The notes beneath the pieces were generated by a model. That model was given only the letters and a program-made list of their open reading frames with translations. It did no database searches and was not told the DNA's origin. Below, one piece after another: positions 12,745-62,484 of a stretch of 64,000 nt of DNA. The translations under genes and the position numbers were made by a program. Every line of letters starts with the position of its first letter. Positions within the stretch are counted from its first letter, which is position 1. The stretch is from Pantoea sp. SoEX (lineage in GTDB: Bacteria; Pseudomonadota; Gammaproteobacteria; Enterobacterales; Enterobacteriaceae): the NCBI RefSeq assembly GCF_009829945.1, contig NZ_SZZT01000003.1, positions 1-64,000 of the forward strand, given 5' to 3'.

Positions 12745-14253
12745 TTAGGTTGTTAATAATTTTAACATTATCAAATAAACTAAACCAGATAATAAAATAC
12801 ATATTGGAATAGTTAAGATCCATGCCATAATAATATTTTTAATTGTACGCCAATGTAATCCTCCTCCATCAGCTAGCATGGCTCCAGCTACTGAAGAAGA
12901 AAGTATATGAGTAGTGGATACTGGCATCCCTGTATAACTTGCAATTCCAATTGAAATTGCAGCTGTTATTTGTGCACACATTCCTTGAGCATATGTCATA
13001 CCTCTTTTCCCTATCTTATTACCTATAGTAGCAGCTACTCGACGCCAACCAATCATTGTTCCAATTCCTATTGCTAAAGCCACTGTAATTATAATCCATA
13101 GAGGTGCATATTCTACTGTACATAATAAATCTTTTTTTAATTTATTAAGCAAGTTCTTATCACTTACATTTATATCTGGTAATTTTACAAATTTATCAAT
13201 AGTATCAGCCATACATAACAGTAAATATCTAATTTTGATCTTTTTACTAACTGGTAGACTGTCATAGTTCTGTAAATTATCAAATAATATTTTAGTTTGT
13301 TTTATTGTATCTAATTCATTAATAGAATTACAATGAAATTTTTTATCTTCTTTATTATCTTTATCTGTAGATTTTGAAATATCTGATTTATTTAATTGGT
13401 GTAATACCTGTAAATATACTGCATGTTTATTACAATAATTTTCTAGGTTTATGATAGCATCATGAGTACGTGTAATTTCATAATTAGAAGCATCAATGTT
13501 AACTACAAATCCTGCAGGAACAACACTGATTAATACTAACATTATTAAACCGATTCCTTTCTGTCCGTCATTAGAACCATGTGAATAACTAACACCCATA
13601 GCTGATAAAACAAGAATAACTCTTGTCCAAAATGGTGGTTTTTTTTTCCCATCTATTTTTTTACGTTGAGAAGGAGTCATATGAATACGTACGTGTTTTT
13701 TACTATTTTTATAACAATGACGTAAAATAAAAATTAATCCACCTGAAATTAATAAACCTATAATTGGTGATATTACTAATGAACTAAAAACACTAATAAT
13801 TTTGGAAACATTAAGAACATTAATCAATGAAGAATCAGTTAATATTGTGTTTGTTAAAGCGATGCCAATAATTGCGCTTATTAAAGTATGAGAACTAGAA
13901 GTAGGTAATCCTAAATACCATGTACTAAGATTCCAAATAATAGCAGTCAAAAGCATAGAAAATATCATAATAAGTCCATGACATGATCCTATATTTAGCA
14001 ACAAATCTGTAGGAAGTAAATGTACTATGGTATAAGCTACACTTAATCCTCCTAACAAAACACCAAAAAAATTAAATATGCCTGACATAATTACAGCAAG
14101 TTGGGCATGCATAGTACGTGTATATATCACTGTTACTACTGCATTAGCCGTGTCGTGAAAACCATTTATTGCTTCGTAACATAATACAAATATTAGAGCT
14201 ATAATTAATAGTAATCCAGTATTTATATTCATACCAGCAAATAGATGTAACAT
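12745..14253 (-). CDS. pitA: Low-affinity inorganic phosphate transporter PitA
   Basis: Pit is an inner-membrane proton symporter for metal-phosphate complexes. The 502 residues from ATG 14253 ([13 protein letters not shown]) align with E. coli PitA (499). Both copies of the family signature are present: [16 protein letters not shown] near the N terminus and [12 protein letters not shown] in the middle. About ten hydrophobic segments flank a central hydrophilic loop (about residues 270-350) that diverges in sequence, as is usual. An upstream in-frame codon would add eleven residues that do not match the family. In a reduced genome this is probably the main phosphate uptake route (inference). 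Confidence 0.95.
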
Positions 14254-14440
14254 AAATTTTACGCCATTTTTAGAGAATATGAACAATATATTATATTATC
14301 CATGACGATCTTCTCTATCTAGAAAAAGAAAAAATTAGTGTTAATTTAATGATGAGTTATAATTATTTCGAATATAGTTCATTAAAAAACCAAAAATAAA
14401 ATAATTTAATAATTATTTTTAAATAAAAATTTACTATATT

Positions 14441-43169: not shown

Positions 43170-44501
43170 TTAATTTAAATCAGTAATAAGGATTCTAGAA
43201 CGTCTTTTATAATTGTAAATTTCTTTTTTTATTTTAGGTAAAAATTCAATACCTGCTGGTCTAAAACCACGTTCTTGAAACCAATGAATACTTCTAGTTG
43301 TTAAAACAAAAATTTTTTTTAATCCTATTTGACGAGCTTGTAATAGTATCTTTTGTAATAATATTTCACCACGAGATGAATTACGGTAGTCAGGATGAAC
43401 AGCTAAACAAGCCATTTCACCTATTTTATCTTCAATAAAAGGATATAACGCTACACAAGCAATAGTTAAATTATCTCTAGTAATTATTGTAAATTTATCT
43501 ATTTCTATTTCTAATTGCTCTCGGGATCTCCTAATTAAAATACCTTGCTGTTCTAAAGGATGAATTAATTCTAATATTCCACCAATATCATTAATTGTTG
43601 CTCTTTTTATCTGTTCAGATGATTCCATAACTATTTGTGTGCCTATACCATCACGTGAAAATAGTTCTTGTAGTAAAGCGCCATCTTCTTTATAACTAAT
43701 TAAGTGACAACGATACACTCCATTTCTACATGCTGTAACGGATCCTTGTAGAAAACGTACAGTATCTGATAAATGATAATTTTTAGTTTTTTGCATAATA
43801 TTTATATAATATTCTGCTTTTTTTGGAAGCAATTCAGAAATTATTTTTCCGGTGTTACTTATAACTCCTTGTTCAGAACAAAATCCAATCATTTTTTCTG
43901 CTTTCAGTTTAATAGCTAAGTATGTAGCAATTTCTTCGGAATTTAAATTGAAGCTTTCTCCAGTTACGGAAACTGCTACTGGTCCTAATAATACAATAGT
44001 GTGATTATCTAGCTGATAGTTAATTGCTTTTTCATCAATACGACGTATTTTACCACTATGACAATAATCCACCCCATCATCTATACCTAATGGTTGAGCA
44101 GTAATGAAATTACCACTAACAACATTAATATTAGCTCCTTGTAGTGGAGTATTGCTTAATGACATAGACAAAAGAGAAGTAATATCAAGTTGAAGACGAC
44201 CTGCTGTTTGTTTTACTATTTCAAGTGTTTTTTTATTGGTAATACGATTATATTTATAATATGTTGATTTTATTTTATTAATTGACATACATTCATCTAT
44301 TTGCGGACGTGCTCCGTATACTAGTACCAACCGAATTCCTAAGCTATGTATTAAACCTATATCATTAATAATATTATAAAAGTTATTGGTTGCAATAGCT
44401 TCACCACTTAGCATGATTACAAATATTTTTCCTCTATGAGCATTAATATATGGTACTATATGGCGGAAGCTGCGAATTAATTCATTGCTACTTTTTTTCA
44501 C
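43170..44501 (-). CDS. argA: N-acetylglutamate synthase
   Basis: ArgA acetylates glutamate with acetyl-CoA, the first committed step of arginine and ornithine synthesis. The 443 residues equal E. coli. The start is GTG at 44501, as in E. coli, with AAAGG a few bases upstream. The N-terminal amino-acid-kinase-like domain (about 1-290; [23 protein letters not shown]) is the arginine-sensing part. The C-terminal GNAT domain (about 295-443) has [14 protein letters not shown] as its acetyl-CoA loop. It lies after recB with recD deleted. Confidence 0.97.
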
Positions 44502-44746: not shown

Positions 44747-44823
<77 letters not shown>

Positions 44824-60189: not shown

Positions 60190-60677
60190 TGATACGTATC
60201 GGACATGGTTTTGATGTTCATGCTTTTAGCAAAAGTAATATTGATAATCCTCTTGTGCTTGGAGGAGTAATCATACCTTTTGAATATGGTTTAATAGCAC
60301 ACTCCGATGGAGATGTTGTTATACATGCTCTCATTGATGCTTTTTTAGGAGCTACATCAATGGGTGATATAGGAACTTTATTTCCAGATACAAATCCTAG
60401 TTTTAAAAAAATTGATAGTTTTTATTTACTAGATAAGGTATGGCAAGATATAGTTTTCAAGGGATATTATATAGGAAATATAGATTTAACGATTATAGCA
60501 CAAGCTCCAAAACTTATTTCATATTTTAAACAAATGCGCTTTAATATTTCTAAAAATATTAATTGTCACATGAATAAGATTAATATAAAAGCTACTACAA
60601 CAGAAAAATTAGGGTTTATTGGTCGTGAAGAAGGAATTGCATGTGAAGCCGTAGTATTGATATTAAAAAATTGCTAA
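60189..60677 (+). CDS. ispF: 2-C-methyl-D-erythritol 2,4-cyclodiphosphate synthase
   Basis: IspF cyclises the CDP-methylerythritol phosphate intermediate to MEcPP. ATG 60189, overlapping the ispD stop, gives 162 residues (E. coli 159). Zinc ligands are in GHGFDVHAF and [21 protein letters not shown], the [20 protein letters not shown] substrate segment and the C-terminal VVLILK are conserved. An upstream in-frame codon at 60171 adds residues unrelated to the family. Confidence 0.96.
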
Positions 60678-60920
60678 TTTTAAACAAAATATTATTAATT
60701 ATTTATTTTTTATAAATCATTCATATAGATAAATAATCTAAAGTATAAAATTATTTACAATAATTATCATCTTCTATAAATATTTATTCCCCTGTTCTTA
60801 TTTTGATAATTTATGTTATTAAGTTATATAATTAATATAATTTTTAGTCTAAATTTATATAAATAGCACTAGAAATTCAAATATAATAAAATTATTTTTA
60901 ACTGTAATAAAACTTAACAG

Positions 60921-60970
60921 TTATAATATATTTATCTTTAATACTTGTATTAAAGATAAATATATTATAA
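60921..60970. repeat. 24-bp perfect palindrome with 2-base centre
   Basis: Arm 60921-60944 is the exact reverse complement of 60947-60970; only TT separates them. It lies 244 bp after ispF and is the longest perfect inverted repeat I found. With A+T around three quarters, a 24-bp perfect match is far beyond chance for one locus. As RNA it would fold into one long stem with a tiny loop; as DNA it could form a cruciform. There is no T-run after it. Function unknown. Confidence 0.85.
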
Positions 60971-61150
60971 AATTAACTAGGCTAATTTTAAATTACATAA
61001 CAGGATATTATGTAAGTTTTATCTATTTGATATTTTAACTTTAGTAATATAAAAAATTGCTTTTTCGTAAGGGAATTAATTTTAAGATTATAAATTTTGA
61101 TTAGCTAAAATTAAAAATATTTTAAATTAAATAGTTAATATTAATAATTA

Positions 61151-61172
61151 ATGACTTGAAGTCATGTTTTTT
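61151..61172 (+). terminator. Small intrinsic terminator-like hairpin
   Basis: ATGACT (61151-61156), loop TGA, AGTCAT (61160-61165), then G and six T residues. The form is that of a short Rho-independent terminator on the + strand. It lies 470 bp beyond ispF with no ORF before it, so it might end an unannotated RNA or a long ispF 3' UTR. The stem is only six pairs. Confidence 0.45.
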
Positions 61173-61207
61173 AAATAAAAAATCAAATCATTATTTAATG
61201 AATAACA

Positions 61208-61231
61208 ATTGATTTTTGATATAAAATCAAT
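61208..61231. repeat. 9-bp inverted repeat
   Basis: ATTGATTTT (61208-61216) and its reverse complement (61223-61231) enclose TGATAT. It is part of the hairpin series before rpoS. AT-rich, so chance is possible. Confidence 0.4.
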
Positions 61232-61309
61232 AATATTATTATATAATGATATATCACTAAATTGTTAATTATTATTTTATATATCTATAAATAAGATATG
61301 TTTTTGGTT

Positions 61310-61326
61310 CAAAAACAATACGAAAA
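61310..61326. repeat. 7-bp inverted repeat GTTTTTG/CAAAAAC
   Basis: GTTTTTG (61310-61316), GTT loop, CAAAAAC (61320-61326). It lies about 65 bp upstream of the conserved nlpD-end/rpoS-leader sequence. Role unknown. Confidence 0.4.
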
Positions 61327-61389
61327 ATCAAACTATAAAGGATATTTCTAAATATGAATAATTTATAGAAATTAGTTTTATAACATTAT

Positions 61390-61449
61390 ATTTTGAAATT
61401 CGTTATTTATAAGGAAGAATCCGTAAACGTTGTGTTATAAATTACAGCG
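61390..61449 (+). pseudogene. nlpD: 3' remnant of nlpD, frameshifted
   Basis: ATTTTGAAATTCGTTA (61390-61405) matches the E. coli nlpD 3' end encoding HFEIRY. TCCGTAAACG (61420-61429) and TGTTATAAATTACAGCG (61433-61449) match the DNA for the last residues (SVNPLRYLPQR). The reading frame is broken: it hits TAA at 61409-61411, and the downstream piece is in another frame. The rest of nlpD is not recognisable. The gene is dead, but its last 60 bases persist, which points to selection for another role, the rpoS leader. Confidence 0.8.
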
Positions 61450-61497
61450 CAATCTGGCAGAAACTATTTTGCTTTGAGATCACGGGTAGGACCGAGT
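61390..61497 (+). promoter_or_regulatory. rpoS: rpoS leader with conserved ribosome-binding region
   Basis: In E. coli the rpoS 5' UTR folds so that an upstream antisense element, inside the nlpD end, masks the ribosome-binding site; small RNAs such as DsrA pair with the element and free it. Here GATCACGGGTAGGA (61478-61491) equals, from memory, the E. coli bases just before rpoS, including the AGGA site. The upstream partner carrying GAAATTCGTTA is also present, with an altered spacer. This is unusual DNA conservation in an otherwise eroded gap. Whether the fold and any small RNA are still used is inference. Confidence 0.7.
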
Positions 61498-62484
61498 ATG
61501 AATCATGATATACTAAAATCTAAAATGCATGAAAATGTAGATTTTGAAGAATATAAAAATGAAATTTTTGATAGTAATGATTTTATCGAAACAGAATTAG
61601 GAGATGATGACATTATAGAAGAAGAAATACTTCCAGGAGCTACTCAAAGAATTTTAGATGCTACGCAATTGTATCTAGGTGAGATAGGGTATTCTCCTTT
61701 ATTAACTGCAGAAGAAGAAGTTTTTTTTGCTCGACGTGCTTTACAAGGTGACATTTTCTCTCGTAAACGCATGATAGAAAGTAATTTACGATTAGTAGTA
61801 AAAATAGCTCGTCGTTATAGTAACAGAGGTATGGCACTATTAGATTTAATTGAAGAAGGTAATCTTGGTTTAATTAGGGCTGTAGAAAAATTTGATCCAG
61901 AGCGGGGTTTTCGTTTTTCTACTTATTCTACTTGGTGGATACGTCAAACTATAGAAAGAGCTATTATGAACCAAACTCGTACTATTCGCTTACCTATCCA
62001 TATTATGAAAGAATTAAACGTTTACTTACGTACTGCTCGTGAACTTTCTCATAAACTAGATCACGAACCTAGTGCAGAAGAAATAGCAGAAAAATTAGAC
62101 AAATCGGTTGACGATGTTAATCGTATGTTAAAATTAAATGAACATATTACTTCAGTTGATATGCCATTAGGTATGGATTCTGAAAAAGCCTTATTAGATA
62201 TATTAGCAGATGAGAAAGATAATGGTCCTGAAAATGCTACTCAAGATGATGATATGAAACAAAGTATAATTAAATGGTTATTTGAGTTAAGCATAAAACA
62301 AAGAGAAGTGTTATCACGCAGATTTGGTTTATTAGGATATGATGCTGCAACTTTAGAAGATGTTGGTCGTGAAATTGGATTAACAAGAGAGCGGGTACGT
62401 CAAATTCAAGTTGAAGGATTACGACGATTGCGTGAAATTTTACAATCTCATGGTTTAAATATTGAAGCGTTATTTTGCAAATAG
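61498..62484 (+). CDS. rpoS: RNA polymerase sigma factor RpoS
   Basis: RpoS directs transcription in stationary phase and general stress. ATG 61498, with AGGA eight bases upstream, gives 328 residues (E. coli 330); a TTG at 61474 lies upstream of that site. It is RpoS rather than RpoD by size, lack of a large region 1.1 insert, the [20 protein letters not shown] signature, and the nlpD-rpoS-mutS context. Regions 2 ([18 protein letters not shown]), 3 ([21 protein letters not shown], including the Lys used by the RssB adaptor) and 4 ([19 protein letters not shown]) are nearly unchanged. Divergence is confined to the first 45 residues. Confidence 0.95.

Follow-up and report, generated by a model that had tools for sequence, protein, structure and literature searches.

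In the reduced genome of Pantoea sp. SoEX, the last ~115–135 bases before rpoS derive from the 3′ end of a dead gene, nlpD, and are under purifying selection while the rest of that gene decays. With slightly better than even confidence, we propose that they have been kept as a cis-acting translational brake that has outlived its trans-acting openers. In the account given in PMC8468756, the E. coli rpoS leader shields the ribosome-binding site (RBS), and DsrA together with Hfq opens it. This leader is a textbook case of Hfq-dependent activation by small RNAs (sRNAs), which makes the stem's own role hard to ask about in that setting. With rpoS in all six species, both stem arms in three, and no Hfq, ProQ, RssB or known sRNAs found, the genus of SoEX is a natural experiment in which the cis element stands apart from its trans openers, and it shows that the tail of a dead gene can be the selected part of a reduced genome.

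The SoEX genome (G000 in our set; 827 kb, 12 contigs, 99.96% complete) was compared with those of five sisters of the same genus (G001–G005, 0.8–0.9 Mb each). The window, that is, the whole stretch of 64,000 nucleotides analysed here, is the start of one SoEX contig (C8). Its rpoS gene (61498–62484, + strand) is intact, scoring 547.8 bits against the NCBIfam RpoS equivalog model (cut-off 394), and among the matches listed with names the nearest are from Pantoea and Winslowiella, at 84%. Among the window proteins that were compared, RpoS is the best conserved in four of the five sister comparisons (against G005, G004, G003 and G001, not against G002). The gene order in E. coli K-12 is ispF-truD-umpG(surE)-pcm-nlpD-rpoS; in SoEX, ispF ends at 60677 and is followed by an 820-base spacer and then by rpoS from 61498. 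Counted with the ATG, this spacer is 823 bases long with 16.5% GC, and its counterparts in the sisters span 516–880 bases.

At 61390–61497, the 3′ end of nlpD, which carries a frameshift, runs into the rpoS leader. Compared with E. coli, the nlpD frame in SoEX reads GAA ATT CGT and then TAT TTA TAA, and 60678–61473 contains no open reading frame of at least 40 amino acids starting with ATG, GTG or TTG. The initial annotation had described nlpD as dead, its terminal DNA as still E. coli-like and 14 bases around the rpoS RBS as unchanged, and all three descriptions hold. The untranslated remnant (61382–61449, + strand) starts at the first aligned base of the local alignment with E. coli K-12 and is also picked up by the segment test described below; even with the last 40 bases removed, the SoEX nlpD end and leader align to those of E. 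coli with a local score of 59, against a shuffle maximum of 36 (n = 200). The 14-base block, GATCACGGGTAGGA (61478–61491), has the same letters in E. coli K-12 and ends with the Shine-Dalgarno region GTAGGA (61486–61491, + strand), placed by its position relative to the ATG at 61498. The leader thus has the origin of an enterobacterial rpoS leader, the nlpD 3′ end directly 5′ of rpoS.

This homology has a limit. We compared five of the six species (SoEX, G001, G003, G004 and G005) segment by segment with E. coli, Pantoea L031 and G018, using shuffled sequences as controls. The reference segment from −135 to −20 was matched above shuffles by SoEX, G004 and G001, and in the same three species no match above shuffles was obtained for any of the four segments from −600 to −135, the region, 5′ of the sRNA site, where an Hfq/sRNA-activated rpoS leader recruits Hfq. 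G005 exceeded all shuffles in two segments only (−135 to −20 of E. coli and −240 to −135 of G018), and G003 did so in none of the reference segments. A block at 61334–61359, ~150 bases before rpoS, appears similar by eye in SoEX, G004 and G001 and could be a further scrap of nlpD or a promoter element, so the limit of homology is possibly less sharp than the segment test gives.

The retained part has resisted the loss of G and C that has swept through neutral positions. Taking the free-living relative G025 as the reference for ancestral G/C and the fourfold-degenerate sites of rpoS and miaA as a neutral yardstick, we find that the leader keeps 34 of 54 ancestral G/C positions in SoEX, 32 in G004, 25 in G005, 24 in G001, 18 in G003 and 15 in G002. 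The corresponding counts for fourfold sites are 5/83, 5/86, 6/86, 7/89, 9/92 and 4/71; at least 90% of ancestral G/C is gone from these sites in each of the six species. Jointly, SoEX, G004 and G001 retain 23/54 leader positions versus 0/67 fourfold positions. With the RBS side excluded, SoEX still keeps 25/43 (Fisher p = 2e-10), and the three species jointly keep 16/43 versus the same 0/67 (Fisher p = 4e-8). The GC content of the rpoS leader (0.35) is the highest among the 28 upstream regions in the window that have room for the comparison, the next being 0.28. Ranked by identity above shuffles, the leader is 1st of 28 against G001, 2nd of 24 against G004, 3rd of 27 against G005, 3rd of 5 against G002 and 15th of 28 against G003. 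The proposal that the leader is conserved while its host gene decays is thus borne out, and its conservation extends to sister genomes (G004 and G001), though three of the six species have altered or lost the stem described next.

The minimum free energy (MFE) structure predicted for −115 to +15 of SoEX is a closed junction over the RBS. The closing stem, P1, would pair a distal arm, ATCCGT (61419–61424), with an RBS-side arm, ACGGGT (61482–61487), that lies within the 14-base block. Enclosed by it are two predicted hairpins: P2, with arms CGTTGTG (61428–61434) and TACAGCG (61443–61449), and P3 (61452–61480), which runs from the old nlpD stop region to the RBS. Below P1, TTCGT (61399–61403) forms the 5′ arm of a lower extension whose predicted partner is ATGAA (61498–61502), the start of rpoS itself; all of these elements are on the + strand. 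The fold is that predicted for G025 and Pantoea L031, and the E. coli K-12 leader has a similar MFE structure; the lower extension appears in all of these predictions.

The letters of P1 have fared unevenly within the genus. Those of its distal arm are the same in SoEX, G004, G001, G025, Pantoea L031 and L033, and E. coli, and both arms are identical in SoEX, G004, G001 and E. coli. In three of the six species (G005, G003 and G002) the distal arm is altered or lost, and in G003 and G002 the P1 arms were not found. P1 is part of the MFE structure in SoEX and G004 and is absent from that of G001. Its pair probability, averaged over the stem and given as a range for three lengths of leader, is 0.87–0.95 in G004, 0.79–0.92 in E. 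coli, 0.50–0.69 in G025, 0.46–0.67 in SoEX, 0.04–0.35 in Pantoea L033, 0.04–0.20 in G018 and 0.00–0.02 in G005; G001 keeps both arms, yet reaches just 0.09–0.11. A hairpin is predicted at the P3 position in G004 and G001 as well, with different letters. The initial annotation had equated this stretch with the inhibitory stem of E. coli, and that is right as far as both arms survive and are predicted to pair over the RBS in SoEX and G004, but does not carry over to the half of the genus in which the stem is altered or lost. In our species tree, SoEX and G005 group with a support of 100 and the order of G001, G003 and G004 is weak (57 and 40), which allows for either two or three independent losses of the stem. 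The G005 leader (L002), otherwise AT-rich, carries a G-rich stretch, GGCTGGAGGGGGGTCG, just 5′ of the rpoS RBS, where it replaces P3.

The MFE of the single sequence has a z-score of −1.58 in SoEX (p = 0.065) and −2.31 in G004 (p = 0.025). Against column shuffles, RNAalifold gives z = −2.84 (p = 0.017) for SoEX, G004 and G001; adding G005 makes P1 the consensus (z = −3.71, with 0 of 300 shuffles as low), which it is in this four-species set alone, and P2 is present in both the three- and four-species consensus. With G003 also included, the p value is 0.093, and with all six species 0.017. In the free-living set, folding of the forward strand is no better than that of its reverse complement. 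We had considered P1 as the consensus of SoEX, G004 and G001 and rejected it: the partner of the distal arm is instead a stretch immediately 3′ of P2, and a structure constrained to contain P1 is 1.2 kcal/mol less stable (1.7 kcal/mol when G025 is added). Covariation was likewise rejected as proof of structure, pair-preserving changes being no commoner than AT-biased substitution gives (p = 0.35–0.50); such substitution types alone account for the pairs that look compensatory (C-G to U-A in P2, and P1 of G005). At the gathering threshold, Rfam reports one tRNA in the window (44750–44823, − strand) and no leader family.

A cis brake is the simplest account, and it would work as follows. The leader of the rpoS mRNA would close the junction through the stem 61419–61424/61482–61487, 61399–61403 would pair with the AUG, and the RBS would be partly hidden, such that RpoS would be made at a low, structure-limited rate. 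With RssB gone, and with it Hfq and the sRNAs that open this stem in free-living relatives, the brake would act alone. Its set point would be either fixed, as constant damping, or shifted by the RNA itself: temperature, folding during transcription or an alternative pairing of the distal arm may each provide an opening.

The foremost alternative, which we consider unlikely but worth real weight, is that the letters are kept for some other reason (as a standby or enhancer site, an mRNA processing or stability site, a promoter element or the rival fold that engages the distal arm) and that P1 is mainly inherited. In its favor are the strong sequence conservation, which covariation does not back, the low probability of P1 in G001, the different partner of the distal arm in the three-species consensus, and the RBS-side block, whose conservation is what initiation alone predicts. 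Against this, conservation is concentrated in the arms of P1 and P2, and the distal arm, remote from the RBS, is among them. SoEX, G004, G001 and G025 are all identical at 21 of the 26 P1 and P2 bases versus 27 of the 76 other leader bases outside the Shine-Dalgarno region, among which P3 is counted (p = 8e-5); when the RBS-side arm is removed, the count for P1 and P2 is 15/20 (p = 0.002). As for a promoter, a sigma-70-like match does lie at 61393–61420, but it fits just 9 of 12 positions, its aligned letters differ in G001, and the region holds 16 such matches versus 11.9 ± 3.5 in shuffles. We set this promoter scan aside, as its matches do not clearly exceed those in shuffles.

The brake that we favor would also be expressed in the accessibility of the start. 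Ranked by predicted opening energy (1 being the hardest to open), the rpoS start region is 1/46 in SoEX, 1/35 in G004, 1/43 in G003, 2/39 in G005, 11/40 in G001 and 4/9 in G002. If folding is confined to the nearest bases, the SoEX rank drops to 12/46; the predicted hiding of its start thus depends on distant pairing. For G003 and G005, the hard-to-open start is predicted to come from a short hairpin adjoining the RBS, and RNAalifold finds a local consensus hairpin for G005, G003 and G002 (z = −3.9). These predictions suggest structural turnover of start hiding among the sisters. When the RBS was kept and the upstream leader shuffled, the opening energy of the real leader was not significantly higher than that of the shuffles in SoEX (p = 0.155) or G001 (p = 0.675). 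E. coli fails this test too (p = 0.14), so its power is low; the other species gave p = 0.045 (G003), 0.050 (G004), 0.060 (G002) and 0.125 (G005). In a temperature sweep, the predicted opening energy fell smoothly and in the same way for SoEX and E. coli, with nothing specific to either.

A bolder reading of the same predictions, which we regard as unlikely, is that the leader has become a self-standing, Hfq-free regulator, in which selection, now that every trans factor looked for has been lost, keeps the start hidden either by the ancestral long-range stem (SoEX and G004) or by the short RBS hairpin (G003 and G005), and with the competing fold as a possible two-state switch. Were this true, the hiding and release of the rpoS start would itself be a physical sensor, perhaps for transmission from host to host. 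PMC7728854 describes how extracellular symbionts can be passed on externally by egg smearing.

The expected openers of the E. coli stem were not found. hfq is absent from all six genomes of the genus, in a search in which 45 of 60 genomes were above the cut-off; the one exception in the genus is a 12-bit match that lies within a long open reading frame of G004. miaA is followed directly by hflK in all six (L133–L138). In G018 and G025, hfq and one more frame sit between these two genes; the extra frame is, we assume from the E. coli order, hflX, and the stretch gone from the six genomes would then be hfq plus hflX. ProQ was likewise found in none of the six and is present in both G018 and G025. 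Searches for RprA and ArcZ were also negative in all six and positive in G025. DsrA too was found in none of the six, an absence that is uninformative because the near free-living G025 shows none above the cut-off either. The DsrA and ArcZ searches used stricter filters, and some first-look candidates went unscored (for DsrA in five, ArcZ in three and RprA in two of the six genomes; in SoEX for DsrA only, with 61 of 68 scored). Nor was the proteolysis adaptor RssB found in any of the six; it is whole in G025 and broken in G018. In the latter (L164, L166; 1.1 Mb), several stops interrupt rssB, and hfq, ProQ and an in-frame nlpD end are still there, which suggests that RssB can be lost before Hfq.

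In a wider draw of 295 genomes from the family, hfq is matched in 230, and 197 contain a hit that reaches the rpoS level (E ≤ 1e-70). Comparing the listings by eye, we found rpoS without hfq in SoEX, G001, G003 and G087; the hfq match of G219 is weak. G087 (L174; 0.8 Mb) lacks the distal-arm part of the leader, and the frame of its ancestral rpoS ATG no longer agrees with that of the remaining gene, so loss of Hfq alone does not keep the stem.

The suggestion that sRNAs of the DsrA, RprA and ArcZ type still control rpoS therefore fails: hfq is absent, and neither ProQ nor any of these sRNAs was found in the six genomes. It is quite improbable that an Hfq-independent sRNA opens the stem in their place. 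The segment 5′ of the stem is partly kept in SoEX (21/26 bases), and symbionts do express sRNAs, but PMC8557413 reports that they have lost RNA chaperones and have fewer trans-acting sRNAs. That segment is, however, poorly kept in SoEX, G004 and G001 jointly (8/26), and a scan of the window found no second site complementary to the distal-arm region, the one match being the leader itself (0.61 expected).

A neutral relic, in which nlpD was lost recently and the leader awaits erosion, would fit the degraded leaders of G003, G002 and, in part, G005, but is very improbable given that matches to nlpD beyond −135 do not exceed shuffles in SoEX, G004 and G001, that fourfold sites have been stripped of their ancestral G/C throughout the genus and that no other of the 28 upstream regions is as GC-rich.

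The closest known counterpart of the SoEX element is the E. coli K-12 rpoS leader (NC_000913.3, L161). The two share their extent from the nlpD end to the rpoS AUG, homologous letters, identical P1 arms and, as far as predicted, the closing stem, P2 and the pairing that covers the start region; they differ in that nlpD is gone further upstream in SoEX, that no Hfq, ProQ, ArcZ, RprA or RssB was detected in its genus, and that P1 is predicted to be weaker in SoEX and G001. RNA thermometers and other leaders that hide the RBS without a trans factor offer a second comparison: in these, pairing in cis covers the Shine-Dalgarno site, as it would in the proposed SoEX brake, whereas the SoEX leader gives no sign of temperature sensing, its predicted change being as smooth as that of E. 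coli. Thirdly, Buchnera intergenic spacers hold conserved predicted RNA structures, according to PMC3164680. In both cases a reduced, AT-rich symbiont has retained intergenic elements whose predicted RNA structure is significant; the SoEX element differs in being homologous to a well-studied regulatory leader, one whose target is named and whose trans factors are known. Among the open-access PMC papers listed for this topic, none has a similar result.

Two other upstream regions of the window are also well conserved. For the pitA gene (12745–14286, − strand), whose precise start is uncertain, the 110 bases 5′ of the likely ATG are 0.83–0.91 identical to four sisters, a level that very few of the other upstream regions in the comparison reach. 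For argA (43170–44501, − strand), the upstream region from 44502 is conserved in five sisters (0.76–0.88), has a GC content of 0.28 and is possibly an operator or leader.
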